In this document: positions 5,586 through 24,103 of the stretch, piece after piece
Numbering within the stretch: position 1 is the stretch's first letter
How the letters are laid out: each line of letters opens with the position of its first letter
Assembly: GCA_014872815.1 (NCBI GenBank)
Contig: WKFK01000014.1
Coordinates: 496,001 to 560,000, forward strand
Length of the DNA: 64,000 nucleotides
Direction: 5' to 3'
DNA from: Paracoccaceae bacterium
GTDB lineage: Bacteria > Pseudomonadota > Alphaproteobacteria > Rhodobacterales > Rhodobacteraceae
Notes under the pieces: generated by a model
What the model was told of the DNA's origin: nothing
The model's database searches: none
The model's input: the letters and a program-made list of their open reading frames with translations, nothing else
Translations under genes and position numbers: made by a program

Positions 5586-5673
5586 GTGTTCTGCTCAATA
5601 TCCGAAACTTCATCCAACACGTAACACTCAAGCGTCATGTCGACAATCACGCTTTGCGCCAGACAAAAAACAA

Positions 5674-5686
5674 AATATCAGATATT
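5674..5686. promoter_or_regulatory. Predicted GntR operator, copy 1
   Basis: AATATC-A-GATATT, a perfect odd palindrome in the divergent spacer, 88 bases from the regulator start and about 95 from the oxidoreductase start. Two longer versions occur at 6862 and 16566. Binding by the neighbouring GntR protein is inferred from position and recurrence. Confidence 0.7.
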
Positions 5687-5780
5687 ATTGAAAATCGCAA
5701 GAATCGCGCATACGATCGCAACATCAAGTGAGTCGCGCCCCATTGCGGCCGAACATGTTTGGAAGCAGAAGGGACTTTAG

Positions 5781-6872
5781 GTGTCAGATCCGTTTAGAAT
5801 TGCCATTGTTGGCGTGGGCTTGGTTGGCCGTAGACATGTCGACGCGATCCGATCTCTGCAAAACGTTTCCTTGACGGCAGTGGTAGACCAAACCCCTGAG
5901 GGGGAGGCATATGCGGCCCAAATAGGCGTCCCATACTTCTCCGATCTCAGTCAGATGCTGCAAACGGTCACTCCTGACGGTGTCATTCTTGCCACCCCAA
6001 CACCGCTTCATATTGAGCAGGGTCTTGCTTGCGTTGCTTATGGCTGCCCTGTGCTTGTGGAAAAGCCCATTGCAGTCGATGCAGACTCCGCCCTAAAACT
6101 TGTTCAAGCTGCAGATGTTTCAGATGTACCTTTGCTTGTTGGACATCATCGCCGTCACAACCCGCTCATTAAGGCTGCCAAAGAAGCCATTGATGCCAAC
6201 AAAATTGGAAACGTCCGCGGCATTCAGGGATCCTGCTGGTTTTACAAACCTGACGGATACTTCGATGTGGCTCCCTGGCGGAAGCAAAAGGGAGCGGGTC
6301 CAATTTCCGTCAACCTGGTACACGACATTGATCTTATGCGCTATTTGGCAGGCGAGATTGTTCAAGTGCACGCCTATGCCCAACCGTCAGTGCGCGGCTT
6401 TGAAAACGAAGACGTGGCTGCCGCGATCATGACTTTTCAAAATGGCGCAATCGCCACAATTAGTGTGTCGGACAGTATTGTCTCTCCTTGGAGTTGGGAG
6501 CTCACGTCCAGCGAATATCCGATTTACCCGTCAACGCAAGAAAGCAGCTATCTCATTGGTGGCTCACATGGATCGATCTCCATACCAGATCTCCGGCTTT
6601 GGACTCACGAAGGGGGGCAAAGAGACTGGTGGACGCCAATTTCTGCCACGTCTTTGAAGACGGGCGCATCGGACCCTTTGGTCAACCAGATCGCCCATTT
6701 CGTGAAAGTGGCCAGGAAAGAAACATCCCCATTGGTGTCTGGATGGGAAGGATTGAGAACCCTTCGGGTCGTTGAAGCTATTCAAAAATCCTGCACGCTT
6801 GGAACATCAATAACCATACCAGACACGGCTACCAAGCAATCCGAAACAGTGCTTCATGTCGAAAATATCTGA
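5781..6872 (+). CDS. Gfo/Idh/MocA-family NAD(P)-dependent oxidoreductase A
   Basis: A sugar, inositol or cyclitol dehydrogenase-like enzyme of 363 residues. An N-terminal Rossmann fold (VGVGLVGRRH near residue 11) is followed by the family EKP motif (VLVEKPIAVD) whose lysine is catalytic, and by VHDIDLMRY holding the usual catalytic histidine/aspartate. The C-terminal half is the substrate-binding sheet. The start is GTG at 5781 behind AGAAGGGA. It is the first plus-strand gene after the divergent regulator, with an operator 95 bases upstream. A second operator overlaps its stop codon and probably serves the transporter behind it. It differs clearly from the two other family members at 13452 and 15290. 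Substrate unknown. Confidence 0.9.
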   Translation: MSDPFRIAIVGVGLVGRRHVDAIRSLQNVSLTAVVDQTPEGEAYAAQIGVPYFSDLSQMLQTVTPDGVILATPTPLHIEQGLACVAYGCPVLVEKPIAVDADSALKLVQAADVSDVPLLVGHHRRHNPLIKAAKEAIDANKIGNVRGIQGSCWFYKPDGYFDVAPWRKQKGAGPISVNLVHDIDLMRYLAGEIVQVHAYAQPSVRGFENEDVAAAIMTFQNGAIATISVSDSIVSPWSWELTSSEYPIYPSTQESSYLIGGSHGSISIPDLRLWTHEGGQRDWWTPISATSLKTGASDPLVNQIAHFVKVARKETSPLVSGWEGLRTLRVVEAIQKSCTLGTSITIPDTATKQSETVLHVENI

Positions 6873-6878
6873 TATTTT
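6862..6878. promoter_or_regulatory. Predicted GntR operator, copy 2
   Basis: AAAATATCTGATATTTT is a perfect 17-bp palindrome overlapping the stop codon of the upstream oxidoreductase and lying 82 bases before dctP. AT-rich promoter-like sequence follows, including two TTGCAAAAA words. It probably controls the TRAP transporter and the genes behind it. Confidence 0.78.
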
Positions 6879-6960
6879 GCAAAAAATATTGCAAAAATAA
6901 TAAAATCAGCCAATGATAAACATCGAAGATTGAGTATCAGTCTAAGGGAGGAAATAGACG

Positions 6961-7968
6961 ATGACCAAATTTACACGCAGAACCGCGCTCTCGGTGCTCA
7001 TGGCCACCGGCGTCGCCTTTGGCGCCGCGGGCAGCGCCTTTGCAGAAGACAAGGTGAAGCTTCGCCTGGCAACATCAGGCTCAGAAACCGATCAGCGCTC
7101 TGTGGCCATGGCCGAAGTCTTTGCGCCGATGGTTGCCGATTTTGCCGACTATGAGCCAAGCTACAACGGCACGATCTTTGCTCAGGGCACTGAACTAGAC
7201 GCCATCAGCCGCGGCAACTTGGAAATGTCCATCGCGTCTGCGCAGGAGCTGGCACAGTTCTTCCCTGAGTTCTCAATCTTTGCGACAGGGTATGTACATC
7301 AAGATGCCGCGCACCAAGTAGCCGTGTTTAACGACCCTCTGATGGACCCGTTCAAAAAGACGGCGGAAGAAGAGCTGGGTGTCAAACTGCTATCGGTCAT
7401 GTACCTTGGGCGTCGCCAAGTAAACCTGCGCCAAACCAAAGATGAATTGACGGTGACGACACCGGCGGATTTGGCTGGCGTGAACCTGCGCATGCCGGGC
7501 ACCGATGCGTGGCAATTCCTTGGCAAAACCCTTGGTGCCGCGCCAACGCCCATGGCGTTCTCCGAAGTCTATACAGCACTTTCAACCGGTGCAGTGGATG
7601 GTCAGGACAACCCACTGCCCACCGTGGTTGACGCGAAATTTTACGAAGTGACCAATCAAATCGTCCTGACGTCGCACCTTGTTGATCTGAACTACATCGC
7701 AATGTCCAAAGCTGTTTGGGACGGGTTGACCCCGGATCAACAGGCGACGGTTCAAAAAGCGGCGGATGCCGCAGCGGAGTCTGGTCGTCAAAAACAACTT
7801 GAGAAAGAAGCAAACCTTGTCAGCTTCTTAAAGGAACAAGGTATGGAGATCTACGAACCCGATCTCGCAGCTTTCCGCACTCAGGTTCAGTCCATGTATC
7901 TAGACAGCGAGTTTGCTGCCTCTTGGCCGGATGGTGTTTTGGATAAAATCAACGCTCTGGGCAACTAA
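6961..7968 (+). CDS. dctP: TRAP transporter substrate-binding protein DctP
   Basis: Periplasmic receptor of a tripartite ATP-independent transporter that imports an organic anion with sodium. It begins with an arginine-rich signal (MTKFTRRTALSVLMATGVAF, cleavage after AFA) behind a strong GGGAGGA site. The family core follows, including the carboxylate-binding region LRMPGTDAWQFLGKTLGAAPTPMAF, with the arginine that clamps an acid group, and EVYTALSTGAVDGQDNPLP. Length 335 is typical. It opens the dctP-dctQ-dctM set. Presence of a TRAP receptor says the imported compound probably carries a carboxylate or similar group; the exact ligand is unknown. Confidence 0.94.
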   Translation: MTKFTRRTALSVLMATGVAFGAAGSAFAEDKVKLRLATSGSETDQRSVAMAEVFAPMVADFADYEPSYNGTIFAQGTELDAISRGNLEMSIASAQELAQFFPEFSIFATGYVHQDAAHQVAVFNDPLMDPFKKTAEEELGVKLLSVMYLGRRQVNLRQTKDELTVTTPADLAGVNLRMPGTDAWQFLGKTLGAAPTPMAFSEVYTALSTGAVDGQDNPLPTVVDAKFYEVTNQIVLTSHLVDLNYIAMSKAVWDGLTPDQQATVQKAADAAAESGRQKQLEKEANLVSFLKEQGMEIYEPDLAAFRTQVQSMYLDSEFAASWPDGVLDKINALGN

Positions 7969-7995
7969 GCAAAACGTTACTGAGGGAGGACACTC

Positions 7996-8586
7996 ATGAG
8001 AAAGCTTATCAGGGGGTTCTCCCGTCTTACAGAAGCGATTGCCGGCGGCATGCTGGCGGCAATCTTCATCATTTTTCTCCTGCAAATCATCCTGCGCTAC
8101 TTCTTTACCCCTGCAGGCTGGACCCTTGAGCTGATTGGCATTCTCTGGGTTTGGGTGATCTTTTTCAGCTGCGCATTTGTCGTGCACGAGCGAGATCACG
8201 TCAAATTCGACATTATCTATCTTTCGGTTCCGACAAAAGTGCGCATGGTGTTTGCGATTATCGGATCCCTCGCGGTTGTCGCAGGCGTGCTCTACAGTTT
8301 CTTGCCGACTTGGGACTACATCGACTGGATGAAAATCCGCAAGACCTCGACAGTTCGCAACCCCTTTACTGGCAACAAAATCCCGCTGCGCGACGTGTTC
8401 TCAATCTACCTCGTCTTTATGGCAGTTGTCGCCGGCCGCTATGCATGGCTCGTGTTCGACATTGTTCGCAACGGACCTCCGAAAACCGAACTTGAGTTGG
8501 TCGTGGGGTTCAATGTTGTGGACGACCATCCACGGGTGGATGTCCCGCACGAAGATAACGACAAAGATCAGGAAACTACAAAATGA
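7996..8586 (+). CDS. dctQ: TRAP transporter small permease DctQ
   Basis: The four-helix small membrane subunit that joins receptor and large permease. The hydrophobic stretches are near residues 15-33, 48-66, 88-106 and 132-152. It carries the family WTLELIGILWVWVIF and ERDHVKFD features. The start has a strong GGGAGGA ribosome site. The hydrophilic C-terminal tail, rich in aspartate and lysine, is longer than in many DctQ proteins. It lies 27 bases after dctP and overlaps dctM by four bases (ATGA). Confidence 0.92.
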   Translation: MRKLIRGFSRLTEAIAGGMLAAIFIIFLLQIILRYFFTPAGWTLELIGILWVWVIFFSCAFVVHERDHVKFDIIYLSVPTKVRMVFAIIGSLAVVAGVLYSFLPTWDYIDWMKIRKTSTVRNPFTGNKIPLRDVFSIYLVFMAVVAGRYAWLVFDIVRNGPPKTELELVVGFNVVDDHPRVDVPHEDNDKDQETTK

Positions 8587-9878
8587 GCTTTGAACTTGCT
8601 TCGTGCCTGCTGACTCTCTTTGTGCTTGCAGGGATCGGGACGCCCATCGGCTATTCGATCATGCTGGCCTCGATTGTCTACCTTGGTGTTGCAGGGCTGG
8701 ACGTTGCCCTGGCGGGTGAGAAAATCCTGCAGGGTTTCTATCGCAGCACCATTTTGCTGGCTGTGCCTCTCTTTATCGTCGCGGCTAACATCATGAATGC
8801 CGGCTCGATCACAGACCGGCTGCTGAACTTCTGTGTTGCCGCCGTTGGGCGGTTCAAAGGCGGGCTTGGCCATGTGAACGTTGTCGCCTCTCTGATTTTC
8901 TCGGGCATGTCCGGTTCTGCCGTGGCGGATGCTGCGGGCATTGGCAAGATCATCATCGAGATGATGACGAAGGACAATCGCTACAGCCGTGGATATGCGG
9001 CGGCCATCACGGCCGCATCGGCGACAATTGGCCCGATCATTCCGCCGTCCATCCCCATGGTGCTCTATGCGCTCGTATCGAAAGCATCGATTGGCTCTCT
9101 GTTTCTGGCGGGCATCCTGCCAGGACTGATCATGGGGGCGGTTCTGATGGCAATGAATTACTATCTCGCCAGCAAGCGCAACTTTGCTCTTGAAGAGCCC
9201 GTGCCTTTAAAAGAGTTGCCTCGAAAAACAGCCAACGCCTTCCCAGCCCTCTTGATGCCAGCGATCCTGCTTTACGGCATCTACGGCGGAGTCACCACAC
9301 CGACCGAAGCTGCCGCAGTTGCCGCATTCTATGCGCTCCTGTTGGCTGCGTTTTTCTATCGCGCCCTGACCCTGCGCGGCCTGTTTCAGGTCTTTATCGA
9401 CAGCGCGCGCTCTTCAGCGGCAGTCGGAATGGTCATCGGCGGCGCCTTCATCCTGAACTTCATCGTCATCCAAGAACAAGTTCCGCAGTCGATTTCCGCA
9501 ATGCTGGAAGGCGCAGATGTCAGCCCGATCATGTTCCTTATCATGGTGAACCTGCTGATCCTCGTTCTGGGCTGCATTCTGGATGCCACGACCATCATCT
9601 TGGTGATCGTTCCCCTGTTTATTCCGACCTGCGAGGCACTTGGTATTGACCTCGTGCACTTTGGAGTGCTTGTCGTGGTCAACTCTATGATCGGCCTGAT
9701 CACTCCGCCCTATGGTATCCTTCTTTTTGTGATCAACGCCGTCACCGACATTCCGCTGCGCGAGATCATTGCCGAAATCTGGGCCTTCCTTGCCGTCCTG
9801 ATCGGGGCGCTCTTGGTCCTGCTTCTTGCACCTGATCTGGTGCTCTGGCTGCCTCGTGTGTTCGGCTATCAGGGGTGA
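8583..9878 (+). CDS. dctM: TRAP transporter large permease DctM
   Basis: The sodium-coupled transport subunit, 431 residues with about a dozen membrane segments, the usual length. Family signatures are present: FSGMSGSAVADAAGIGKI, the IGPIIPPSIPMVLY hairpin, TPTEAAAVAAFYAL and NSMIGLITPPYG. It is translationally coupled to dctQ (ATGA at 8583). The next gene begins four bases after its stop, so transporter and enzymes share a transcript. Confidence 0.95.
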   Translation: MSFELASCLLTLFVLAGIGTPIGYSIMLASIVYLGVAGLDVALAGEKILQGFYRSTILLAVPLFIVAANIMNAGSITDRLLNFCVAAVGRFKGGLGHVNVVASLIFSGMSGSAVADAAGIGKIIIEMMTKDNRYSRGYAAAITAASATIGPIIPPSIPMVLYALVSKASIGSLFLAGILPGLIMGAVLMAMNYYLASKRNFALEEPVPLKELPRKTANAFPALLMPAILLYGIYGGVTTPTEAAAVAAFYALLLAAFFYRALTLRGLFQVFIDSARSSAAVGMVIGGAFILNFIVIQEQVPQSISAMLEGADVSPIMFLIMVNLLILVLGCILDATTIILVIVPLFIPTCEALGIDLVHFGVLVVVNSMIGLITPPYGILLFVINAVTDIPLREIIAEIWAFLAVLIGALLVLLLAPDLVLWLPRVFGYQG

Positions 9879-9882
9879 TCCG

Positions 9883-11781
9883 ATGGTCATGTCCGTATCT
9901 ACAACTTCGGTCCCTGGCAGCCTGGCGGACAAGCTCAAGGCGATCGCCGACGCCGGTTTTGACACCGTTGATATCCATGAACCAGACATCACGGCATCGG
10001 AGTTAAGTCCTGCGGACGTTGGCAGGCTCGCAAGTGACCTCGGGCTTGGCGTTGGTTTCTTGCAGCCGTTTCGGGACCTTGAGGGTCAAGTAGATACCGA
10101 GGCGACTTTCGCCCGTTTTGAAGAAAAGCTGAAATTAGCCTCGTTGCTCGGCGCCAAAGGACTCTTGGTGACATCTGCAACCGTCAATGATGACACCGCA
10201 GACGTTGAAAGTTGTTTGGCCGATCTTAAACGCGCGGCCGAACTGGCTCGAAAGCACGACCAAGTAATTGCGTACATGGCGCTGCCTTGGGCGAAATCTG
10301 TTTGCACAGACATTGAAGCGCTGGACGTGGTGTCGCGCGTGGACGCACCAAATTTCGGTTTGGCGCTGAATTCATTTTTTTCTCTGGCGGACGGATCCAA
10401 ACCGGCGCGATTGAGAGAAGTTCCCGGCCACAAGCTGTTCCATGTTCAGCTATCGGACGCACCGCGTTTGGAAACCGATATCCGTCACCTCAAGCGCCAC
10501 TTTGGGCTGCTTCCAGGACTTGGCGCTCTCAATCTTTCCGGGTTTGTCAAAGTATTGGCACGGGGTGGCTACGAAGGCGCATGGTCCGTTGCCCGCGTGA
10601 ACGAAACGGCGCCGCAACCCGGCGGCACCACATTGGCACGAGACAGCTACCGCGCATTGGTCAATCTTCTGGATGAAGTGGCTCGAAGTGAGCCCGGCGT
10701 GACTTTTGGCACCCCTGCGATGCCTGCGCGGGTATATGCATCAGGTTTTGAGTTCATCGAATTCACGTCCGACGAAGCGAGTGCGCGTGAGCTAGGTGAG
10801 AGCCTTGCCGCTCTGAGTTTTCGCAGAGAGCGCAAACACGTCAGCAAACAAGTAGAGCTTTGGCGGCAAGGTTCCATCAATTTCGTGATCAACAAGGATC
10901 CCGAAGGCTTTGCTCGGAAGGCCTTTCTCGGTCATGGCCCGTCGGTCTGTGACATGGGGCTGCGGGTCAAGGACGCTGCTCAGACAGTCGCCCGCGCAAC
11001 GGCACTTGGCGCGCCAGACTTCTCTCAACCTGTGGGGATTGGTGAGCTCGACATTCCTGCGATTCGAGGTGTCGGGGGCAGCGTTGTTCACTTTATCGAT
11101 GAGCAATCTGACCTTCATCGTGTTTGGGATATCGAGTTTGATCCCGTGCAACACAAGTCGGTGGTCCAGCCCGCCGGGCTGCGCCGTATCGATCACGTGG
11201 CGCAAACCATGCGCCACGATGAAATGCAGAGTTGGCTACTGTATTATCTGTCGACTTTCGACATGTCCAAAGCCCCTATCCACAACGTTGCGGACCCGTC
11301 TGGCGTTGTGCACAGTCAGGCTATTGAGAGCCCTGAAGGCGAGGTGCGCCTGAACCTCAATGGGGCAGTCGGGCGCAATACTTTGGCCGCTTCATTCCTT
11401 CAGGATGGCTTAGGCGCGGGCGTGCAACATATTGCGCTGCTCACGGATGATATTTTTGAAACGTCCGAAATCCTCGCACAGCATGACTTTGGCCGTCTCA
11501 AAATCCCTCAAAACTACTATGCCGACCTGCGCGCGACATTTGGATTGGACGACGACTTTGTGGCGAGATTGCAAGCTGGCAGCATCCTCTACGACCGCGA
11601 AGGCGCTGGCGAGTATTTCCAAATCTACAGCAGAACCATGTTCAACGGCTTCTTCTTCGAGATCGTGCAGCGGAAAGGCGGCTATGCCGGTTTTGGCGCA
11701 CGAAATGCGCCCATTCGCCTGGCAGCGCAACAAGCCTATGCGGCATCAGCGGATCAATACACGGAGCCAGCAGTCTCATGA
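9883..11781 (+). CDS. Fused sugar-isomerase-like / HPPD-like protein (QuiC-type fusion, N-terminal site degenerate)
   Basis: Two domains in 632 residues, the layout of bacterial 3-dehydroshikimate dehydratases (QuiC/QsuB type). Residues 1-270 form an AP-endonuclease-2-like TIM barrel, 290-632 a 4-hydroxyphenylpyruvate-dioxygenase-like vicinal-oxygen-chelate region. In the barrel the family metal ligands Glu, Asp, Gln, Glu appear here as Met132, Asn163, Gln189 and Ala237, so dehydratase activity looks lost. In the C-terminal half all three iron ligands of true HPPD are kept: His438 (RIDHV), His516 (GVQHIAL) and Glu593 (FFEIVQR). The active part is thus probably the dioxygenase-like domain, perhaps acting on a 2-oxo acid. 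I start at 9883, just after dctM; a longer frame inside dctM is unlikely. Ligand comparison is from memory of the family. Confidence 0.82.
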   Translation: MVMSVSTTSVPGSLADKLKAIADAGFDTVDIHEPDITASELSPADVGRLASDLGLGVGFLQPFRDLEGQVDTEATFARFEEKLKLASLLGAKGLLVTSATVNDDTADVESCLADLKRAAELARKHDQVIAYMALPWAKSVCTDIEALDVVSRVDAPNFGLALNSFFSLADGSKPARLREVPGHKLFHVQLSDAPRLETDIRHLKRHFGLLPGLGALNLSGFVKVLARGGYEGAWSVARVNETAPQPGGTTLARDSYRALVNLLDEVARSEPGVTFGTPAMPARVYASGFEFIEFTSDEASARELGESLAALSFRRERKHVSKQVELWRQGSINFVINKDPEGFARKAFLGHGPSVCDMGLRVKDAAQTVARATALGAPDFSQPVGIGELDIPAIRGVGGSVVHFIDEQSDLHRVWDIEFDPVQHKSVVQPAGLRRIDHVAQTMRHDEMQSWLLYYLSTFDMSKAPIHNVADPSGVVHSQAIESPEGEVRLNLNGAVGRNTLAASFLQDGLGAGVQHIALLTDDIFETSEILAQHDFGRLKIPQNYYADLRATFGLDDDFVARLQAGSILYDREGAGEYFQIYSRTMFNGFFFEIVQRKGGYAGFGARNAPIRLAAQQAYAASADQYTEPAVS

Positions 11782-12650
11782 AGGCCGCACTCATCGGCGA
11801 AAAAACCTCAGGTTCGCTTACCCCGAAACTCCATGAGCAAGAGGCGAAGGCTCAAGGCTTCGCTTACCGCTATGACCGAATTGATCCGTCCAAGACACAT
11901 CCGGAACTCCATAGCGTTTCTGACTGTTTGGAATGGGCCGAGGCCAATGGTTTTGCGGGTGTAAATATCACATACCCGTTCAAAAATGACGCTGTCGCAT
12001 ATGTGGACGAGCTTTCGCCAATCGCAGAGAAGTTGGCATCCGTGAATACGGTTGTGTTTTGCGAAGGGCGGCGCATTGGCCACAACACGGACTACGGTGG
12101 CTTTTCTAAAGCTCTAGATGAGGCGCTGCAGAACCAGCGGAAAACGACGTGTGTTCTATTTGGTGCTGGGGGAGCAGCCAGTGCTGTTGGTTTGGCGCTA
12201 CTGGATGCAGGCGCGCAAAAATTGACAGTCATCGACCCCCAACAAGACCGCGCACAAGAGCTTTCTGACCGCCTGAGTGCTTTGCGGCCCGGCTGTACAA
12301 TTGCGCCTTCCCGATTGTGCACGGACGACATCTTAGTGAAAGCCAATGGCGTTGTGAACGCCACTCCACTGGGTATGGGGGCGGACCAAAGGAAAGCCTT
12401 TGATCCAGCCAAATTAACGCTCGGCACTTGGGTCGCTGACATCGTCTACTTCCCTTTGGAAACGCCGCTTTTGCAGGCCTCTATGGTTTGTGGTCTCCCT
12501 GTAGTGAGTGGACGCGGCATGGCGCTTAACCAAGCCGCAGAAGCATTCCAATTGATCACAGGGCGTCAGGCCAATGTGGCGCGCATGAGCGCTCACCTTT
12601 CCGAGCTTCTTGACGAGAAAACACCACATTCGGAGACAGAGCATGTCTGA
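11778..12650 (+). CDS. Shikimate/quinate dehydrogenase-like protein (AroE family)
   Basis: An NAD(P)-dependent dehydrogenase acting on shikimate, quinate or a related cyclic acid; 290 residues. The substrate domain has the catalytic lysine in VNITYPFK (about residue 70) and the catalytic aspartate in HNTDYGGF. The cofactor domain has FGAGGAASAVG. Later come NATPLGM and ALNQAAEAF, all AroE signatures. It overlaps the preceding gene by four bases (ATGA). Being inside an inducible catabolic cluster rather than a biosynthetic context, it is probably a catabolic paralogue. No dehydroquinate dehydratase gene accompanies it. Confidence 0.9.
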   Translation: MKAALIGEKTSGSLTPKLHEQEAKAQGFAYRYDRIDPSKTHPELHSVSDCLEWAEANGFAGVNITYPFKNDAVAYVDELSPIAEKLASVNTVVFCEGRRIGHNTDYGGFSKALDEALQNQRKTTCVLFGAGGAASAVGLALLDAGAQKLTVIDPQQDRAQELSDRLSALRPGCTIAPSRLCTDDILVKANGVVNATPLGMGADQRKAFDPAKLTLGTWVADIVYFPLETPLLQASMVCGLPVVSGRGMALNQAAEAFQLITGRQANVARMSAHLSELLDEKTPHSETEHV

Positions 12651-13455: not shown

Positions 13456-14633
13456 CAGATCGCCCGAAATCCTTCCGGGTCGGCCTCATCGGATGCGGCC
13501 GCATAAGCGATATTTACCTAACAACTTTGGCAAAGTTCGATCATGTAGAGGTTGTGGCCTGCGCCAGTCTTGATCCTGCTGAAAGCCGCGCGAAAGCGGC
13601 GCAACACGGCATACCCAAGGTGTGTCCGCCAGACGAGCTGCTGGCGGATCCCGACATTGATTGCATTTTGAACCTCACCATTCCGGCAGCCCATGCCGAG
13701 ATCAGCTGCAAAGCACTCTTGGCTGGCAAACATGTCTATTCGGAAAAGCCTTTCGTAACCGACCGTGAAGACGGCAAAACCCTGTTGGATTTAGCCAAGC
13801 AAAAAGGGCTTCTGATTGGCAATGCGCCAGACACATTCCTGGGTGGCCGTTGGCAAACTGTGCGCAGGCTTTTGGATGACGGAGCGATTGGGAGACCGAC
13901 AGGTGTCTTTGCACATGTCGGCACACATGGCACCGAAAGACACCATCCAAATCCTGATTTTTACTATCAGGCCGGCGGCGGGCCTCTGCTCGATCTCGGC
14001 CCCTATTATTTGACCGCTATGGTGTTTTGCCTTGGCCCTATCTCCAAAGTGGCGGGCATGGCGCGTCGCACGTTTGACAAGCGGCAAATCGAAAACGGCC
14101 CGCGCAATGGCGAATGGATGAATGTGGAAGTGGACACGCATTCGCTCAGCCTTTTGCAATTTGAGAGCGGTGTGTTAGGGCAGATGACAATGAGTTTCGA
14201 CATCTGGGACAGCGAAACGCCTCGCTTTGAAATCTATGGCGAAACCGGCACCATTTGTATCCCTGATCCTGACCCGGTGCATGGGGCGAATGACTTTCAC
14301 GGCCCCGTGTGGCTGCGCACCAAGGAGACCTCTCGCTGGAGCCATCAGCCACGTCCGACGGGGCGGGATTTTTGGGAGGAAGCCCCACCCGACCATGGCT
14401 TCAACGAAAACAGCAGGGGCCTTGGACTGATGGACTTGGCAGCGGCTGTCAAAGAGAACAGATCGCCGCGCGCGAGCGGCGAGTTGGCCTTCCATGTGTT
14501 TGACGTAATGGACGCTATCGCGCGCTCTGGCCAAAGCTCGTCTTTTGAAGAGATTGCCACAACCTGTGCGCGTCCAACCCCCCTCCCCGTTGATTTCTTG
14601 TCGCCAATCAAGGACCCGGCTCATGCCAGTTGA
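13452..14633 (+). CDS. Gfo/Idh/MocA-family oxidoreductase B
   Basis: A probable NAD(P)-dependent dehydrogenase of a sugar- or cyclitol-like substrate, 393 residues. The Rossmann motif IGCGRISDIYL is near residue 14, and the EKP motif VYSEKPFVTD supplies the catalytic lysine. The family's central region reads GGGPLLDLGPYYLTA, without the more common GTH histidine. The start is the ATG at 13452, which overlaps the stop of the citrate-synthase-like gene (ATGA); the longer open frame from 13290 lies within that gene. It is the second of three different family members in the cluster, implying several redox steps or epimerisation by oxidation and reduction. Confidence 0.88.
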   Translation: MTDRPKSFRVGLIGCGRISDIYLTTLAKFDHVEVVACASLDPAESRAKAAQHGIPKVCPPDELLADPDIDCILNLTIPAAHAEISCKALLAGKHVYSEKPFVTDREDGKTLLDLAKQKGLLIGNAPDTFLGGRWQTVRRLLDDGAIGRPTGVFAHVGTHGTERHHPNPDFYYQAGGGPLLDLGPYYLTAMVFCLGPISKVAGMARRTFDKRQIENGPRNGEWMNVEVDTHSLSLLQFESGVLGQMTMSFDIWDSETPRFEIYGETGTICIPDPDPVHGANDFHGPVWLRTKETSRWSHQPRPTGRDFWEEAPPDHGFNENSRGLGLMDLAAAVKENRSPRASGELAFHVFDVMDAIARSGQSSSFEEIATTCARPTPLPVDFLSPIKDPAHAS

Positions 14634-15288
14634 GAACCTAAGCTTCGCAGCCCCATTCTTCACCGTTCGCTTGCTCACCAATGTCACAACCTACGATTTG
14701 GACACCCGTGCTATCGCCCTAAACTTGGGAAGGAACGCAATATCTATTGAACATCAGTCTCTGGCACCGTTGACGTCTGTAATCGTTCAGGATTGCACGC
14801 TGTCTGACGTGGATCGCTGTTTGCTCATTGAAGGCTTTGATGATCGCGACGACGATGAGGCCTTCTTTGATGAAATCAAAGCCCATTGGCCTTCTGCCTT
14901 TGATGTGCGACGCGAGGAACGTTTGCGCGGTGTTAGCCACTACATGTCCCCCAAGTCCATCAAGGGAGATCTGGGATTGACCATGTATCACTCCGGTTCT
15001 GTGCCGCTGAATGTGGGCCTGCACAGAGATCACCCGTTCTGCCCCGTTCCGGGTTTTCGAGAGGTCCACACGCAAGTCGTTGGCTTTGGTAAAATGCAGC
15101 AATGTCGGGAAAAGGACGTCGGCACCTTGTATCTGGAAGAGCCAATGGCGCCCGGCACCACACATCGCCCGATGTATGATGCCAACGGCAACTATCCATG
15201 GCATCAATATGAAACCATCACACCGAGTGTTTTTCTCGCGGTTGAGTTGCTGCCAAACGGCGCCTCTTTCCCAGGTCAGGAGTTGTAA
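14623..15288 (+). CDS. Conserved cupin-like protein of unknown function
   Basis: I do not recognise this 221-residue protein. It has no signal peptide or membrane segment. The C-terminal half has a pattern suggesting a metal-binding beta-barrel: VGLHRDHPFCPVPGFREVHT, with three histidines, then GFGKMQQ, and finally GTTHRP and YPWHQYETITP. This spacing resembles a cupin-type fold, possibly an isomerase or a sensor of the substrate. The start at 14623 overlaps the preceding gene by 11 bases, and the next gene begins one base after its stop, so it is clearly part of the operon. A catalytic role in sugar or cyclitol isomerisation is only a guess. Confidence 0.7.
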   Translation: MPVENLSFAAPFFTVRLLTNVTTYDLDTRAIALNLGRNAISIEHQSLAPLTSVIVQDCTLSDVDRCLLIEGFDDRDDDEAFFDEIKAHWPSAFDVRREERLRGVSHYMSPKSIKGDLGLTMYHSGSVPLNVGLHRDHPFCPVPGFREVHTQVVGFGKMQQCREKDVGTLYLEEPMAPGTTHRPMYDANGNYPWHQYETITPSVFLAVELLPNGASFPGQEL

Positions 15289-15289
15289 A

Positions 15290-16480
15290 ATGTCGCACAA
15301 ACTTCTTCCCGCCGACCTGAGCTTTGAGGGCCCTTTCCCACGTCTGTCACGCCGTTTGAGGCTTGGTGTCGTCGGAGGCGGCAGGATATCAGAAACCCAA
15401 GCGACCGCAGCCCGCCTGACGGGCCAGTGGGAAGTTGTTGCGGGCGCTTTGAGTTCAGACCCAGCCCGCAGCGCAGAACGCGGTAAGCTTTGGTACCTGG
15501 AGCCGGATCGAATCTATGACTCTTTTGAGGCCATGGCGGCGTCAGAAGCCGACCATCCGCAGGGGGTGGATGCGGTTATGATAACCACACCGAACAACAT
15601 GCATTTTCCTGCAGCCAAAGCGTTTCTGGAGGCCGGTATCTCGGTGATCTGCGACAAGCCTTTGACCAATGAAATGGAAGAGGCACGTGCCCTTGTTGCG
15701 GCCACCCAAGAGGCCAAACAAATTTTTGGTGTCGGGTATGTGATGTCCTGTTTCCCCATGGTGCGCCAGGCAAAACACATTGTGGCTCAAGGTGGCATTG
15801 GAGAGATCAATCAGATTCACGTGGAATTCATGCAGGACTGGATGGTGCCCGAAGAAGTCGCGGATGCGCCTCACGTTAAGTGGCGACTTGATCCCAAAGT
15901 TTCCGGCCCAACCAGCTGCGTTGGTGACATTGGCACCCACGCTGCGCATCTGGCCAGCTTTGTCTCGGGACTTTCTCTAACCGATCTACAGGCTGAGTTT
16001 CATGTCTGCGGCGCGCCAAAGCCCCTGGAAGACACGGTCTTCATGCGCACGAAATTTGACGGGCGTGTTCCTGGTACACTTATGGCCACACGGCTCGCAC
16101 CCGGGAATCGCGGAGGCCTCAGGCTACGCATTTATGGCAGCGAAGGCGGCATTGAATGGGATCTGGAGAACTCTGAGCGGCTTAAGTTCAACCGTTTTGG
16201 GGAGGCCGATCGGATCATAAGTCGAGGCCACGGTCACGAGGTCGCGCCTCATGTTGAACGTTTGATCCGCACCGCGCGGGGGTTTCCTGAAGGCATCATT
16301 GAGGCCTGGGCCACGTTGTACGCTGAACTGGCCTTGGCGGTTGCTGGGCATAAGGATGGGGTTTCATCGCCGACAGATTGGCTGGATTTTCCAAGTGTTG
16401 AGGCTGGCGCGAATGGCGTTGCCTTTGTGGACGCGGCCGTACGGAGCAACGCGGCCTCAGGTGCTTGGGTGCAGGTATAA
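15290..16480 (+). CDS. Gfo/Idh/MocA-family oxidoreductase C
   Basis: The third oxidoreductase of the set, 396 residues. After a short N-terminal extension comes VVGGGRISETQ (near residue 25), the cofactor loop. ISVICDKPLTNE is the variant EKP motif with its catalytic lysine kept. VGDIGTHAAHLASF holds the conserved histidines of sugar-dehydrogenase members. The start at 15290 follows the upstream stop almost directly; a longer frame from 15011 lies inside the preceding gene. A terminator and a further operator follow, so this ends the first long transcript. Confidence 0.9.
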   Translation: MSHKLLPADLSFEGPFPRLSRRLRLGVVGGGRISETQATAARLTGQWEVVAGALSSDPARSAERGKLWYLEPDRIYDSFEAMAASEADHPQGVDAVMITTPNNMHFPAAKAFLEAGISVICDKPLTNEMEEARALVAATQEAKQIFGVGYVMSCFPMVRQAKHIVAQGGIGEINQIHVEFMQDWMVPEEVADAPHVKWRLDPKVSGPTSCVGDIGTHAAHLASFVSGLSLTDLQAEFHVCGAPKPLEDTVFMRTKFDGRVPGTLMATRLAPGNRGGLRLRIYGSEGGIEWDLENSERLKFNRFGEADRIISRGHGHEVAPHVERLIRTARGFPEGIIEAWATLYAELALAVAGHKDGVSSPTDWLDFPSVEAGANGVAFVDAAVRSNAASGAWVQV

Positions 16481-16505
16481 TAACAATAAAAATGGGGATT
16501 TACTT

Positions 16506-16536
16506 GACCGCCTGTCACCGCAGGCGGTCTTTTTCT
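16506..16536 (+). terminator. Rho-independent terminator after the first island operon
   Basis: A 9-bp stem GACCGCCTG (16506-16514) pairs with CAGGCGGTC (16521-16529) around a 6-nt loop and is followed by TCTTTTTCTTT. It separates oxidoreductase C from the downstream unit. Confidence 0.9.
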
Positions 16537-16565
16537 TTGGTCCAATCGAAAAGTTGATATTTTTA

Positions 16566-16582
16566 AAAACATCTGATATTTT
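16566..16582. promoter_or_regulatory. Predicted GntR operator, copy 3
   Basis: AAAACATCTGATATTTT differs at one base from the perfect copy at 6862. A further GATATTTTT half-site directly precedes it. It lies after the terminator and 42 bases before the start at 16625, so the downstream three-gene unit is probably under the same control. Confidence 0.72.
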
Positions 16583-16624
16583 CATGTTTGTGTGATGAAT
16601 TGGATTCGCTGGGAGGCGCGCAAA

Positions 16625-17539
16625 ATGAACGGACCACAGTTTGAGGCGAGCTCCCCCTCGCTTTACTCCCTTGCGCACCTCACTTTGATCAATTGTACCC
16701 CGCCGGAATTGGTCTACATCGCGGCGCGCGCAGGGTATGACGCTGTAAGTCCACGCTTTATTCCCATGCACGTCCCCGGAGAGTTCACCCAGTCTCCGGT
16801 AAGCAAGTCGCAGGTTCAGGCCACAAAGACGGCTTTGGCGACAACCGGATTGCGCGTGCTGGATGTCGAGCTGGCGCGCATCACAGAAGATGTAGACCCT
16901 CGAAGTTTCGAACGGTCTTTGGAAATCGGCGGTGAACTTGGCGCCAAACGCATGATCATGAGTGCTTGGACCAACACGCGAGACGACCGAGACTTTCTCA
17001 TCGACGTCTATGCAGAGACATGTGAACTCGCCGCGCCATATGGGCTGACAATCGACCTCGAGTTTCCCTCCTTTTCACGTCTGCGCACATTGGACGAAGT
17101 GCTCGATATTGTGACGGCCGCGGACCAACCCAATGGCGGTATTCTTGTCGACACTCTGTACCTTCACCTCAGCCGCGTTGATTTGGGTGAGTTGCTGCAT
17201 GTCCCGGCTAACTTGCTACATTTCCTGCACATTTCCGATTGCCTGCCGGGCATCGCGGATACACGCGCTGGGATGATCCAGCTTGCGCGAGATGCGCGGT
17301 TGTATCCCGGAGAAGGCTGGATCGATTTTGCCGGCATTATCGAACGCATGCCGCCCGTGGATTACTGCATTGAGTTGCCCAATCAGAGCCGCGTGGCGGA
17401 ACTTGGCTACGAGGAGCATGCCCGTCGCTGTTTGACCCACGCAAAACGCACATTCGGAGAGGCACGCTCTCAGCGCCGCCTGTCGGACCCTTCCACCCCA
17501 TCCATCAATGAGGAACACCATGGGCAGAGAGCTCACTAA
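16625..17539 (+). CDS. Sugar phosphate isomerase/epimerase-like TIM-barrel protein
   Basis: An AP-endonuclease-2-superfamily barrel of about 304 residues, of the type that isomerises, epimerises or dehydrates sugars and cyclitols (compare IolE). The four metal ligands can be followed: Glu in IDLEFP, Asp in LVDTLYLH, His in LHISD and Glu in CIELPN. It thus keeps the site that is degenerate in the fused protein at 9883. The start at 16625 has GGGAGG eight bases upstream; an upstream in-frame ATG at 16592 lacks one. It leads the second island operon, 42 bases after an operator, and overlaps the next gene by 20 bases. Confidence 0.87.
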   Translation: MNGPQFEASSPSLYSLAHLTLINCTPPELVYIAARAGYDAVSPRFIPMHVPGEFTQSPVSKSQVQATKTALATTGLRVLDVELARITEDVDPRSFERSLEIGGELGAKRMIMSAWTNTRDDRDFLIDVYAETCELAAPYGLTIDLEFPSFSRLRTLDEVLDIVTAADQPNGGILVDTLYLHLSRVDLGELLHVPANLLHFLHISDCLPGIADTRAGMIQLARDARLYPGEGWIDFAGIIERMPPVDYCIELPNQSRVAELGYEEHARRCLTHAKRTFGEARSQRRLSDPSTPSINEEHHGQRAH

Positions 17540-18929
17540 CGAAGAGCGCGAACTGGTCGCGCAGATGGTCAACCGCGCACGCGCGGCCATGGCCCAGATC
17601 GAAGACTGGAGTCAGGCGGACCTCGATCGGTTGTCTCAGGCCATTGCATGGTACGCCGGTAACGAAGACACCTTCACGCGTCTTGCGAAACAAGGCGTAG
17701 ACGAAAGTGGCATTGGGGACCGTGAGGGACGTCCAGGAAAGCGCTTCAAGATTCACATGGTGCTGCGTGATGTCTTGCGCACACCGTCAACAGGCGCTGT
17801 TGAGGTCGACGAAGCAAAAGGGCTCGTGAAATACGCAAAGCCTGCGGGTGTGATTGCGTCTCTGATCCCTATGACCAATCCTGCGATGACCCCTCCAGTC
17901 ACTGGCGTGTCTTCCGCAAACGCGCGCAATGCGGTGATATTTTCCCCGCACCCCCGCACCGCGCAAACCACTTACGAGATGGTCGAAGTTATGCGCGCGG
18001 CCTGCCGCGCGGCCGGTGCGCCAGAGGACCTTTTTCAGTCCATCCGCAAACCTTCCATCCCCATGACCCAACATTTGATGGAGGTTTGTGATCTGACCCT
18101 CGCCACGGGCGGCAAACCCATGGTCAAGGCCGCGTATAGCTCGGGTCGTCCAGCCTATGGCGTTGGCGCAGGCAACTCTTCCATCGTGATCGACGAGACC
18201 GCTGATCTGGACATTGCTGCGCAAAACACACGTATCTCCAAGACCTCTGACTTTGGGTCTGGCTGTTCCGCAGACGGCAACATTATCATTCAGCGTTCCA
18301 TCTATCAGGATATGGTGAAGGCGCTTGAAGCCGAAGGCGGCTACCTGTGCTCCGAAGAAGAAAAGAAACTTCTTGAAGCCGCGATGTGGGATGAAAAAGG
18401 CAACCGTACGTTCCCGACAATCGCCTGTCGTCCGCAGCAAACTGCGGAAGTTGCTGGCTTCTCAATTCCCGAGGACCGCAAGTTCCTGATGGTCGAAAAC
18501 CAAGGCCAAATCGGCCCTGAGCATAAGTTCTCCAAAGAGAAGCTCACCACGCTCATGGCTCTCTATCATTTTGAGACATTCGACGACGCGCTGGACACCG
18601 TCAGCAAAATTTACGCCACCGGTGGCAAAGGGCATTCCTGCGGCATCTACAGCCACAATGATGATCACATTGACCAACTTGCACGCCTCGCGCCGGTAAG
18701 CCGGATGATGGTGCGCCAACCGCAATCCAAGGCCAATGCAGGTGCATGGACAAACGGCATGCCCATGACCTCTTCTCTTGGGTGCGGCATTTGGGGTGGC
18801 AACATCACCAACGAGAATGTCACCATGAAACACATGATGAACTACACGTGGGTCAGCCGCCCAATCGCTGAAGACCGCCCTTCCGAAGAAGAGCTGTTTG
18901 GTGAGTTTTTTGGACAGGAGGTCGCGTGA
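17520..18929 (+). CDS. CoA-acylating aldehyde dehydrogenase, sulfoacetaldehyde dehydrogenase (SauS)-like
   Basis: A member of the acylating aldehyde dehydrogenase family of about 469 residues, converting an aldehyde to its CoA thioester with NAD(P). The catalytic cysteine is in FGSGCSADGN (about residue 245). Family features PAGVIASLIPMTNP and GVGAGNSSIVID precede it and GKGHSCGIYS follows. The overall text resembles SauS, but the sulfonate genes expected alongside it (an xsc or sulfonate transporter gene) are absent, so another short aldehyde is as likely. The start at 17520 follows GAGGAA; an in-frame ATG at 17508 is possible. The next gene overlaps its stop by one base. Confidence 0.82.
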   Translation: MGRELTNEERELVAQMVNRARAAMAQIEDWSQADLDRLSQAIAWYAGNEDTFTRLAKQGVDESGIGDREGRPGKRFKIHMVLRDVLRTPSTGAVEVDEAKGLVKYAKPAGVIASLIPMTNPAMTPPVTGVSSANARNAVIFSPHPRTAQTTYEMVEVMRAACRAAGAPEDLFQSIRKPSIPMTQHLMEVCDLTLATGGKPMVKAAYSSGRPAYGVGAGNSSIVIDETADLDIAAQNTRISKTSDFGSGCSADGNIIIQRSIYQDMVKALEAEGGYLCSEEEKKLLEAAMWDEKGNRTFPTIACRPQQTAEVAGFSIPEDRKFLMVENQGQIGPEHKFSKEKLTTLMALYHFETFDDALDTVSKIYATGGKGHSCGIYSHNDDHIDQLARLAPVSRMMVRQPQSKANAGAWTNGMPMTSSLGCGIWGGNITNENVTMKHMMNYTWVSRPIAEDRPSEEELFGEFFGQEVA

Positions 18930-20722
18930 TGGACGGCACCAAAGTAGACGACAAAACCGTCGCGGAACACATCGTCGACTTCCTACAACGTCGTGACGTT
19001 GAGCACGTTTTTGGTCTCTGCGGGCACACCAATATCGCGGTGCTGGCCGCTTTGGCGGAAAGCCCGATTGATTTTGTCACAGTACGCCATGAACAAATCG
19101 CCAGCCACGCGGCAGACGCCTATGCCCGCGTGACAGGCAAGGCCTCGGTGGTGCTTTCACACCTCTCCCCTGGTTTGACCAACTGCGCCACCGGGGTCGC
19201 AAATGCCGCGTTGGACTGTATTCCAATGGTTGTGATCGCCGGCGACATTCCTACGCACTATTATGGCAAGCACCCGCATCAGGAGGTCAACCTGCATGCC
19301 GACGCTGCTCAGTGGGAGATCTACCGCCCCTTTGTGAAGCGTGCTTGGCGTGTGGACCGCGCGGATTTGATGGCTGAGATACTTGAAAAGGCCTTCCATC
19401 TCGCCGAAAGTGGTCAACCAGGTCCGGTTTTAGTGAACGTACCAATGGACATCTTTTCCGAAGTGATTCCGTCAGACACTTTTGACAGGGTCGCCCAAAA
19501 CACCCGTGCTTTGGTAAAGCCTTCGATTGACGACGAAATGGCCCGTCAAATCGTTGCGAAACTGGCATCTTCCAAAGCGCCAGTCGCCTACGTGGGCGGC
19601 GGCATTCTTCTGGCACAGGCCAGCGAAGAACTGCGCGAGTTTGTGGATCACATGGGCCTGCCTGTTGCGCATTCCTTGATGGGCAAAGGTGCGCTTCCGG
19701 ATGATCATCCTCTGGTCATGGGCATGACCGGCTTCTGGGGCACCGAGTTGGTGAACCAATCTTGCCTGAACGCTGACACCGTTTTTGCTGTTGGCACGCG
19801 GTTTAAGGAAGCGGACTGCTCCAGCTGGTACCCCGGCTATACATTCAACATTGGTGGCAAAACCGACACAACTAAAGTGATCCACATCGACATCGAACCT
19901 ACGGAGATCGGTCGCAACTATCCCACCGAAATCGGTGTTGTCGCCGACGCCAAAGCGGCGCTGCGTGTCCTCAATAGGGTCGCGCGTGAAGTGTATCCAA
20001 ACGGCTTGGATCGCACAGACAAAAAGGAAGAAATCGTCAAGTTCCGCACTGCGTTCAAAGCTTCAAATGCGGAAATGCAAACCTCAACAGCGTTCCCAAT
20101 GATGCCGGAGCGAATTCTTGCGGACACACGCAAAGCGCTACCAGAGGATGCAATCATCACAACCGATGTCGGGTGGAACAAAAACGGTGTTGGACAGCAG
20201 TTTGACATCCTGACCCCAGGCTCCATCCTCACTCCGGGCGGCTTCGCCACCATGGGGTTTGGCCCCCCCGGCGCGATTGGAGCCAAGTTGGCGGCGCCGG
20301 ACCAAGTCGTTCTCAGTCTGGTGGGCGACGGCGGATTTGGTCAGAACCCGTCGATGTTGGCCACCGCGGTTGAGCTGAATCTGGGGATCATCTGGCTGGT
20401 GATGAACAACAATGCGTTCGGCACAATCGCAGGCCTACAGAAAGCGCACTACGGGCTAACCTACGGCACCACGTTCCCCGGCACCCCGGACGCCCCAACA
20501 AATGGGCCTGGCTACGCAGAAATTGCTCGGGCCTATGGCGCTGAAGGCATTCGTGTTACCTCAGCAAGCGAGTTGTTACCGGCGCTGGAAGCGGCCATTG
20601 CCAGCGGCAAGCCCACGGTCTTGGATGTCCCAATGATCAACAATCCCACGCCAACGACCGGACACTGGAACATCTTGGACATCTACTCGCCAGACAAGGA
20701 TGTATCGCACGTTTCGACATAG
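18929..20722 (+). CDS. Thiamine-diphosphate-dependent enzyme (acetolactate synthase/IolD-like)
   Basis: A 597-residue enzyme with the three-domain plan of the acetolactate-synthase superfamily. The pyrimidine domain has the activating glutamate in VRHEQIASHAADAYARVTG (about residue 50). The central domain follows. The cofactor domain has the metal motif GDGGFGQNPS ending in NNNAFG. It is unlike sulfoacetaldehyde acetyltransferase in its N-terminal part. Candidate reactions are decarboxylation of a 2-oxo acid or hydrolytic ring cleavage of a cyclic dione as in IolD; an aldehyde product would feed the acylating dehydrogenase just before it. The ATG at 18929 is preferred over GTG at 18926 because AGGAGG is seven bases upstream. 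It is the last gene of the island. Confidence 0.85.
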   Translation: MDGTKVDDKTVAEHIVDFLQRRDVEHVFGLCGHTNIAVLAALAESPIDFVTVRHEQIASHAADAYARVTGKASVVLSHLSPGLTNCATGVANAALDCIPMVVIAGDIPTHYYGKHPHQEVNLHADAAQWEIYRPFVKRAWRVDRADLMAEILEKAFHLAESGQPGPVLVNVPMDIFSEVIPSDTFDRVAQNTRALVKPSIDDEMARQIVAKLASSKAPVAYVGGGILLAQASEELREFVDHMGLPVAHSLMGKGALPDDHPLVMGMTGFWGTELVNQSCLNADTVFAVGTRFKEADCSSWYPGYTFNIGGKTDTTKVIHIDIEPTEIGRNYPTEIGVVADAKAALRVLNRVAREVYPNGLDRTDKKEEIVKFRTAFKASNAEMQTSTAFPMMPERILADTRKALPEDAIITTDVGWNKNGVGQQFDILTPGSILTPGGFATMGFGPPGAIGAKLAAPDQVVLSLVGDGGFGQNPSMLATAVELNLGIIWLVMNNNAFGTIAGLQKAHYGLTYGTTFPGTPDAPTNGPGYAEIARAYGAEGIRVTSASELLPALEAAIASGKPTVLDVPMINNPTPTTGHWNILDIYSPDKDVSHVST

Positions 20723-23042: not shown

Positions 23043-23159
23043 ATTGAACAGCCCTATTTGCCGATTTGAGAAAACACTGCCCGTTATGTGCAAAATGAGG
23101 GGTGCAAATCAACCCATTTCGGAATGATTTTTTGCTCATCGCCGAACATGGGATCAAGA

Positions 23160-24086: not shown

Positions 24087-24103
24087 TACTGAGGATCAAT
24101 TAA

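Follow-up and report, generated by a model that had tools for sequence, protein, structure and literature searches.

What does a marine Paracoccaceae bacterium take up and degrade with a gene cluster that couples a tripartite ATP-independent periplasmic (TRAP) importer to a QuiC-type fusion, an AroE-like dehydrogenase, a thiamine diphosphate (ThDP) enzyme and a citryl-CoA-lyase-like enzyme (CCL)? The cluster occupies positions 4932-20722 of the window, the 64,000-nucleotide stretch of contig WKFK01000014.1 analysed here. It is a single unit, made up of a divergent GntR/FCD regulator and, at 5781-20722, 13 genes that all run in one direction. Aerobic quinate/shikimate breakdown is taught as a one-way route to protocatechuate; for some anaerobes, a fermentation of quinate and shikimate that passes through no aromatic intermediate has reportedly been described in older work. 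On a slight balance of probability, we favour a GntR-controlled regulon that serves to import quinate/shikimate-type (hydroaromatic) acids and to degrade them without aromatisation.

Gene content, operators and conservation

Domains were assigned to the cluster proteins with Pfam and NCBIfam. The regulator (4932-5585, minus strand; Pfam FCD and GntR) faces away from the operon genes, all on the plus strand: Gfo1, a Gfo/Idh/MocA oxidoreductase with Lys/Asp/His kept (5781-6872); the TRAP solute-binding protein DctP (6961-7968), small permease DctQ (7996-8586) and large permease DctM (8583-9878); the QuiC-type fusion (9886-11781); the AroE-like shikimate/quinate dehydrogenase (11778-12650), optional in relatives; CCL, with a citrate synthase fold (12643-13455); and an accessory module of Gfo2 (13452-14633), a bicupin protein (14623-15288) and Gfo3 (15290-16480), both Gfo proteins again being Gfo/Idh/MocA oxidoreductases. 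A terminator-like hairpin with a T run (16506-16538, plus strand; two overlapping sites, against a mean of 0.3 in shuffles) separates these from a second transcription unit with an AP_endonuc_2/xylose-isomerase-like TIM barrel (16625-17539), a SauS-like CoA-acylating aldehyde dehydrogenase (17508-18929) and the ThDP enzyme, of the acetolactate synthase/IolD/cyclohexane-1,2-dione hydrolase superfamily (18926-20722). Every enzyme family listed in an earlier note on this DNA was found where that note had placed it, and the three Gfo/Idh/MocA proteins that it called unlike have clearly distinct nearest structures. The range it drew, 5674-20722, starts exactly at the first base of the palindrome AATATCAGATATT, but it left the bicupin gene unlisted and the divergent GntR gene outside.

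The exact GntR-type palindrome AATATCNGATATT occurs at only two sites in the 3,964,870-base genome, upstream of Gfo1 (5674-5686) and across the end of Gfo1, upstream of DctP (6864-6876); the reversed control gave 0. Scanning the window with the operator pattern yielded three matches, including a copy with one mismatch upstream of the second unit (16568-16580), against a mean of 0.00 in 100 shuffles. Among relatives, 40 of 76 TIM barrel genes and 20 of 39 DctP genes have the core motif in the 250 bases before them, and it was absent upstream of SauS (0/90), CCL (0/73), QuiC (0/57), Gfo2 (0/48), bicupin (0/47) and Gfo3 (0/47); the background, real sites included, is 83 matches in 2.19 Mb, and the gene sets hold some contigs twice. 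The cluster is one regulated unit.

Among 390 genomes of the order searched, 16 (the source genome included) encode a full-length bicupin, with two further partial matches, one of them in an already counted genome. Regions were fetched from the 15 other bicupin-bearing genomes. The gene grouping exceeds chance, since 14 of the 15 have GntR, adjoining Gfo1, and an identical order of the core genes, with AroE in six of those 14. The fifteenth region has only Gfo2-bicupin-Gfo3 and a second Gfo3-like gene; there (L032:7681-11901) the module lies outside the main cluster, and its neighbours include a sugar-type ABC transporter, a LacI-type regulator and a GMC oxidoreductase. The best conserved cluster genes include CCL, SauS, ThDP and TIM, the SauS and ThDP proteins at 88-92% identity, and AroE is the least conserved (47-48%) except for DctQ in two regions (43-44%). 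ThDP orthologues (E <= 1e-200) occur in 33 of the 390 genomes, source genome included, and in 14 of 139 genera.

A wider scan of named genomes gave at least 577 loci, of which the best 80, a non-random and Ruegeria-rich sample, were scored for gene presence (E <= 1e-8, coverage >40%): SauS in 77, TIM in 71, QuiC in 65, CCL in 56 (at only 31% identity in L127), an HMG-CoA (3-hydroxy-3-methylglutaryl-CoA)-lyase-like gene in 12, AroE in 28 and AroQ in 7. The Gfo2-bicupin-Gfo3 module is optional, being present in 30 of the 51 loci that carry QuiC, CCL, TIM and SauS. Each of seven other neighbour families recurs in 3-7 of these loci; judged by eye, they are LysR-type and TetR-type regulators, a 136-aa stress-protein-like family, an aldehyde dehydrogenase-like family, an ABC ATPase, an RND (resistance-nodulation-division) pump and a TctA-type permease.

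The enzymes and the company they keep

Three results favour a hydroaromatic acid as substrate: AroE, AroD, AroQ and QuiC as neighbours, kin of the TRAP importer in quinate operons, and replacement of CCL by an HMG-CoA-lyase-like protein. The window's AroE-like protein scores 300 bits against PRK12549 (cut-off 235) and keeps the catalytic Lys/Asp, identifying it as an AroE-type quinate/shikimate dehydrogenase. In the seven ThDP loci with AroQ, the gene is just downstream of ThDP (L101, L121, L124), after TIM (L127) or elsewhere (L072, L115, L122). A plasmid of Azoarcus sp. KH32C (L043) brings together AroD, an AroE-like protein (29% identity), ThDP (66%), CCL (59%), a class III CoA transferase and separate genes that resemble the two halves of QuiC. 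Streptomyces and Nonomuraea records combine CCL, a CoA transferase, an ordinary aldehyde dehydrogenase, ThDP (~50%) and PQQ (pyrroloquinoline quinone)-type dehydrogenases that fall below NCBIfam cut-offs, and beside CCL and ThDP lie AroE in Streptomyces (41%) and QuiC in Nonomuraea (36%). DctP homologues were matched in 38 plasmid records, and eight regions were examined: six, from Loktanella, Marinovum, Peteryoungia, Chelatococcus, Alloyangia and Paracoccaceae La 6, contain AroE, AroQ, QuiC or a quinate-type PQQ dehydrogenase (DctP identity 47-73%), Peteryoungia qualifying by a shikimate dehydrogenase alone. It is from gene company of this kind that we infer the substrate.

If the substrate is a hydroaromatic acid, the ordinary route to protocatechuate by AroE and QuiC, with the remaining operon genes unrelated, has to be weighed, and the QuiC-type fusion bears on it most directly. 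The dehydroshikimate-dehydratase site consists of Glu134, Asp165, His168, Gln191 and Glu239 (numbering from PMC7442255). Aligned to P. putida QuiC1 (5hmq), the window protein shows E134M, D165N, H168F and E239A, with only Gln191 kept, whereas all site residues are kept in five of five QuiC proteins of plasmid quinate-type operons (L045, L046, L142, L145, L148) and in the Nonomuraea QuiC (L047). Across 81 QuiC homologues, a set that holds some contigs twice, Glu134 is absent in 67, nine keep E/D/H/Q/(E or D), and five are an E/x/H/H/E variant. This last, a third form of QuiC with an E/x/H/H/E TIM-barrel site in place of E/D/H/Q/E, is found in L115, L120, L121, L124 and L125. The H/H/E of the C-terminal HPPD/VOC-like domain is kept in all 81. 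Loss of the metal site is, by these residues, a feature of the window's lineage, and together with the invariant C-terminal H/H/E it indicates that the dehydratase half has probably decayed here and that the C-terminal half is under constraint; an inhibition result suggests that this domain binds a catechol-like ligand. Judged by its residues, the protein that the earlier note called a QuiC-type fusion would not be a working dehydroshikimate dehydratase, and with the dehydratase site lost and the C-terminal H/H/E retained, breakdown by the usual way of protocatechuate is unlikely in this case.

That route does have the adjacency of the AroE-like and QuiC-like genes on its side, as well as ordinary operons with a related TRAP system in Loktanella and Chelatococcus, and sister-lineage loci with an intact QuiC beside ThDP (see below). 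Protocatechuate/catechol-type dioxygenase genes (PF00775) are present in the genome and match only at C3 (G000:C3:50849-52038), so that aromatic ring cleavage is encoded apart from the cluster. No second TIM-type QuiC exists in the genome, however, no pca gene appears among the cluster's Pfam matches, and the genes that the route would leave unrelated, CCL, SauS, ThDP and TIM, rank with the best conserved ones. We consider ordinary catabolism to protocatechuate improbable, at a little under one chance in ten.

The lyase and acylating steps vary between lineages in an informative way. The window CCL reaches 432 bits with NCBIfam NF004864 (cut-off 261), its His/His/Asp triad is present in 74 of 74 sequences, and it belongs to the PRK06224 group. 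No locus of the best 80 has both CCL and the HMG-CoA-lyase-like protein; one of the latter was tested with NCBIfam (PRK05692, 310 bits; cut-off 246) and three were assigned by Pfam. The two lyases, of unrelated folds, catalyse one kind of reaction, in which a 3-hydroxy-3-substituted acyl-CoA undergoes retro-aldol cleavage and gives acetyl-CoA and a ketone. Likewise, where 77 of the 80 loci have the SauS-like enzyme, two actinobacterial clusters have an aldehyde dehydrogenase and a class III CoA transferase instead. Both replacements speak for the chemistry proposed below.

The best NCBIfam model for the acylating enzyme is SauS itself (NF047625), which could point to sulfonate catabolism, and a TauE/SafE gene does lie beside AroD in Azoarcus. 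The score, 428 bits, is nevertheless below the cut-off of 600, Xsc reaches 283 against 676, and none of the families recurring in at least 3 of the 80 loci looks TauE/SafE-like by eye, so that a sulfonate substrate is highly implausible. The catalytic Cys of the SauS-like enzyme is kept in 93 of 93 sequences. A SauS-like fragment (51.6% identity over 78%) also occurs in an unannotated 7-kb faecal record labelled 'Bacteriophage sp.' (MT837313.1), which is possibly bacterial DNA.

A cyclitol route (inositol or methylinositol), or degradation of mycosporines or gadusol, is suggested by the resemblance of the Gfo-TIM-ThDP set to IolG, IolE and IolD, and the ThDP enzyme is the second-best IolD-family match in the genome. 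The individual identities do not hold: the best IolG score is 142 bits (cut-off 355), the TIM barrel matches no IolE model at E <= 0.001, and the ThDP enzyme scores 234 bits with IolD against a cut-off of 715, while another gene of the genome reaches 799. The AroQ, AroD and AroE neighbours would moreover have no role, and the cluster's Pfam results include no demethylase or deaminase. Nothing therefore points to the methylated inositols or mycosporine-type compounds that the earlier note had listed as candidates, and cyclitol-type substrates in general seem very unlikely. What the TIM barrel does retain is its metal site: the window protein has all four E/D/H/E ligands, as do 83 of the 87 sequences compared, itself among them, and 80 of the 87 retain a fifth tested position as well. 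It is related to the QuiC dehydratase domain and is a candidate dehydratase or isomerase. In a quick-search tree, 31 rows group with the window's ThDP enzyme, a candidate ring-opening enzyme, and long branches leave its attachment to IolD or acetolactate synthase unsure. Two long open reading frames (ORFs) in L121 and L124 had suggested a ThDP-AroQ fusion; they proved to be separate overlapping frames, with AroQ just downstream.

The bicupin has no Pfam match. Its AlphaFold model (pLDDT 74) resembles cupins such as BacB, KduI and AerE in Foldseek at low TM-scores (0.23-0.34), a fold-level likeness that makes the protein a candidate isomerase only. Distant bicupin relatives (28% identity overall, 24-38% in local matches) occur on Thalassospira and Rhizobium plasmids (L041:6665-10288, L042:255-10672), near a ThDP enzyme (32-34% identical to the window's) and HisD-like and GMC dehydrogenases, which suggests a further related ring-catabolic cluster.

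A proposed route and what weighs against it

Gene content, conservation, operators, active-site residues and replacement patterns are observations; the substrate, the intermediates, their order and the reaction of each enzyme are what we infer, as follows. The TRAP system would import the ring acid, and AroE or Gfo1 would oxidise it to a 3-dehydroquinate-type ketone, shikimate-side material entering by AroQ/AroD-type hydration. The metal-intact TIM barrel, aided by the QuiC-like VOC domain, might then rearrange or dehydrate the ketone to a cyclic 1,2-dione, which the ThDP enzyme would open between its two carbonyls to give a branched C7 acid with one aldehyde. Conversion of the aldehyde to a CoA thioester by the SauS-like enzyme would produce the citryl/homocitryl-CoA pattern, CoAS-CO-CH2-C(OH)(COOH)-CH2-R, because C1 of quinate, with a CH2 group on either side, bears both OH and COOH. 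Quinate is, to our knowledge, one of few ring acids with such a carbinol carbon between two CH2 groups. CCL, or the HMG-CoA-lyase-like protein in the sister lineage, would finally split the thioester into acetyl-CoA and a C5 2-oxo diacid: 2-oxoglutarate if the TIM barrel step dehydrates or, with a second oxidation in place of dehydration, 4-hydroxy-2-oxoglutarate (then pyruvate and glyoxylate). A different stereoisomer or a further ring acid could enter the route by the optional Gfo2-bicupin-Gfo3 module.

An acidic ring compound of quinate/shikimate type and the order of ThDP cleavage, CoA activation and C-C cleavage were already part of the pathway sketched in the earlier note; both are retained here, with AroD/AroQ near ThDP and the enzyme replacements in their favour, and its IolG/IolE/IolD identities are dropped. 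The complete non-aromatising route, comprising ThDP opening, a homocitryl-CoA-type thioester and release of acetyl-CoA and a 2-oxo diacid, with the HPPD-like QuiC domain catalytic in its own right and kept after decay of the dehydratase, is put forward tentatively, as somewhat short of an even prospect.

The scheme without dehydration is a variant of this route. A second oxidation by Gfo1 and AroE would give a 3,4-dioxo quinate that keeps the C5-OH; ThDP, SauS and CCL would convert it to acetyl-CoA and 4-hydroxy-2-oxoglutarate, and an HpaI- or Eda-type aldolase would yield pyruvate and glyoxylate. An HpaI-family ORF does follow ThDP in nine of the 80 loci (within ~30 bases in eight; at a greater distance, and as a partial ORF, in L060), the three of these ORFs that were tested scoring below the HpaI equivalog cut-off; two HpaI-family paralogues are encoded elsewhere in the genome, and each cluster has several dehydrogenases. 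Nine loci are nonetheless few, the window is not among them, and the conserved TIM barrel, kin of the QuiC dehydratase domain, would be left without an obvious role. We regard the variant as unlikely, at perhaps one chance in five.

Several observations weigh against a GntR-controlled regulon for non-aromatising hydroaromatic breakdown. The HpaI-like aldolase genes just described fit 4-hydroxy-2-oxoglutarate, not 2-oxoglutarate, as product. The ThDP enzyme scores 412 bits with the acetolactate synthase model against 234 with IolD, and 181 with cyclohexane-1,2-dione hydrolase (2pgn, which we take, in organism and pathway, to be the Azoarcus enzyme) against 265 with acetolactate synthase. Twelve of the 80 loci have neither lyase, including four of the 67 with at least 9 kb upstream (L065, L088, L096, L119), and many of the 80 are congeneric, so that their counts are not independent. 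AroE is absent in eight of the 14 relatives, the window cluster has no dehydroquinate dehydratase, the genome's only type II one being at C6, and the core motif lies upstream of only two of 35 Gfo1 genes, and one of 38 GntR genes, in relatives. An intact QuiC site stands beside ThDP in seven sister-lineage loci (L110, L112, L113, L116, L117, L118, L126), which account for seven of the nine intact sites among the 81 homologues, and in the Nonomuraea region, hence a dehydroshikimate dehydratase and the ThDP gene are not exclusive of each other. For the C-terminal QuiC domain, PMC7442255 proposes oligomerisation, not catalysis.

The remaining points of this kind concern the importer. Both Ponticoccus TRAP-kin regions lack a quinate gene, and three of the eight regions, those with the highest DctP identities (Ponticoccus 77%, Marinovum 73%, Peteryoungia 70%), have a DapA/N-acetylneuraminate-lyase-type gene, as would be fitting for 2-ulosonic acids. 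The nearest structure to DctP is PDB 4pf6 (78% identity in the Foldseek alignment), Roseobacter denitrificans RD1_0742, reportedly a complex with 3-deoxy-D-manno-octulosonic acid (KDO); the sialic-acid SiaP proteins come next. The structure prediction for DctP itself (pLDDT 42) is too poor for structural claims. On these grounds the substrate might be a 2-ulosonic acid, KDO or similar, from lipopolysaccharide or algal walls, its pyranose oxidised by the Gfo enzymes and split by TIM and ThDP. None of the DapA-type genes, however, reaches an NCBIfam cut-off, and six of the eight regions, as described above, have quinate/shikimate genes. The associations with AroE, AroQ, AroD and QuiC would have no role, and we could construct no KDO-derived substrate for a citryl-CoA or HMG-CoA lyase step. 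KDO-pyranose and quinate have the pattern C(OH)(COOH)-CH2-CHOH-CHOH in common, so KDO could be a surrogate ligand. A 2-ulosonic acid is thus an improbable substrate, although less so than a route to protocatechuate.

Relation to known systems

The cluster has the AroE-like dehydrogenase, QuiC-type fusion and a related TRAP system (DctP 48-52%) in common with the quinate/shikimate-to-protocatechuate operons (qui/qsu; Loktanella salsilacus plasmid L046, Chelatococcus L145), but has lost the QuiC metal site, lacks AroQ and pca genes, and adds CCL, the SauS-like, ThDP and TIM proteins and the Gfo enzymes. With the myo-inositol pathway (iolG/E/D) it has in common a Gfo dehydrogenase, a metal TIM barrel and a ThDP enzyme for which hydrolysis of a cyclic dione is proposed; in contrast, its proteins fail the IolG and IolD models and match no IolE, and thioester and acyl-CoA lyase steps act on what is proposed to be an acidic ring substrate. 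Cyclohexane-1,2-dione hydrolase belongs to the same ThDP superfamily and opens a 1,2-dione ring to an aldehyde acid, as proposed for the window enzyme, which is nearer acetolactate synthase by sequence and differs in substrate and context. Citryl-CoA lyase accompanied by a CoA transferase and a tricarboxylate transporter, as on a plasmid of Ruegeria sp. THAF33, has CCL 58-67% identical among the 20 plasmid records listed, with 263 of 279 records below 60%; there the thioester is made by a CoA transferase, whereas in the window an acylating aldehyde dehydrogenase would make it after ring opening. The Azoarcus sp. KH32C plasmid cluster (L043) likewise has ThDP, CCL and an AroE-like protein, together with AroD and split QuiC parts, but a CoA transferase takes the place of SauS, no TRAP system is annotated in the region, and its annotation is only piecewise.

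The earlier note had called the regulon undescribed, and we likewise found no description of the gene set in the open-licence PubMed Central (PMC) literature, judged by titles and abstract starts among the matches listed. In the same text no paper treats quinate and citryl-CoA lyase jointly or KDO catabolism with a TRAP transporter, and none on hydroaromatic degradation is relevant by title; among the matches listed, homocitryl-CoA does not occur in the quinate-related papers, KDO does not occur in the Roseobacter TRAP solute-binding-protein papers, and no mycosporine term occurs in the TRAP-related papers. The papers listed for 4PF6 deal, by title, with the chemistry of PF6 salts. PMC5812351 mentions neither 4PF6 nor KDO nor quinate, PMC9870897 neither quinate nor shikimate, and PMC3141670 none of the terms looked for. 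The enzyme families are all known; their combination in one cluster and the proposed route appear new.

Elsewhere in the window, an arginase-family gene followed by an ornithine cyclodeaminase-family gene (23088-25150) is a probable arginine/ornithine catabolic pair, and an HlyD-type adaptor is paired with an AcrB-type RND pump (46576-51698).

If the proposed route is correct, marine bacteria and some other proteobacteria and actinobacteria would bypass the aromatic stage, so that a ring acid from plants and algae would yield acetyl-CoA and a small oxo acid with no oxygenase needed to cleave the ring.

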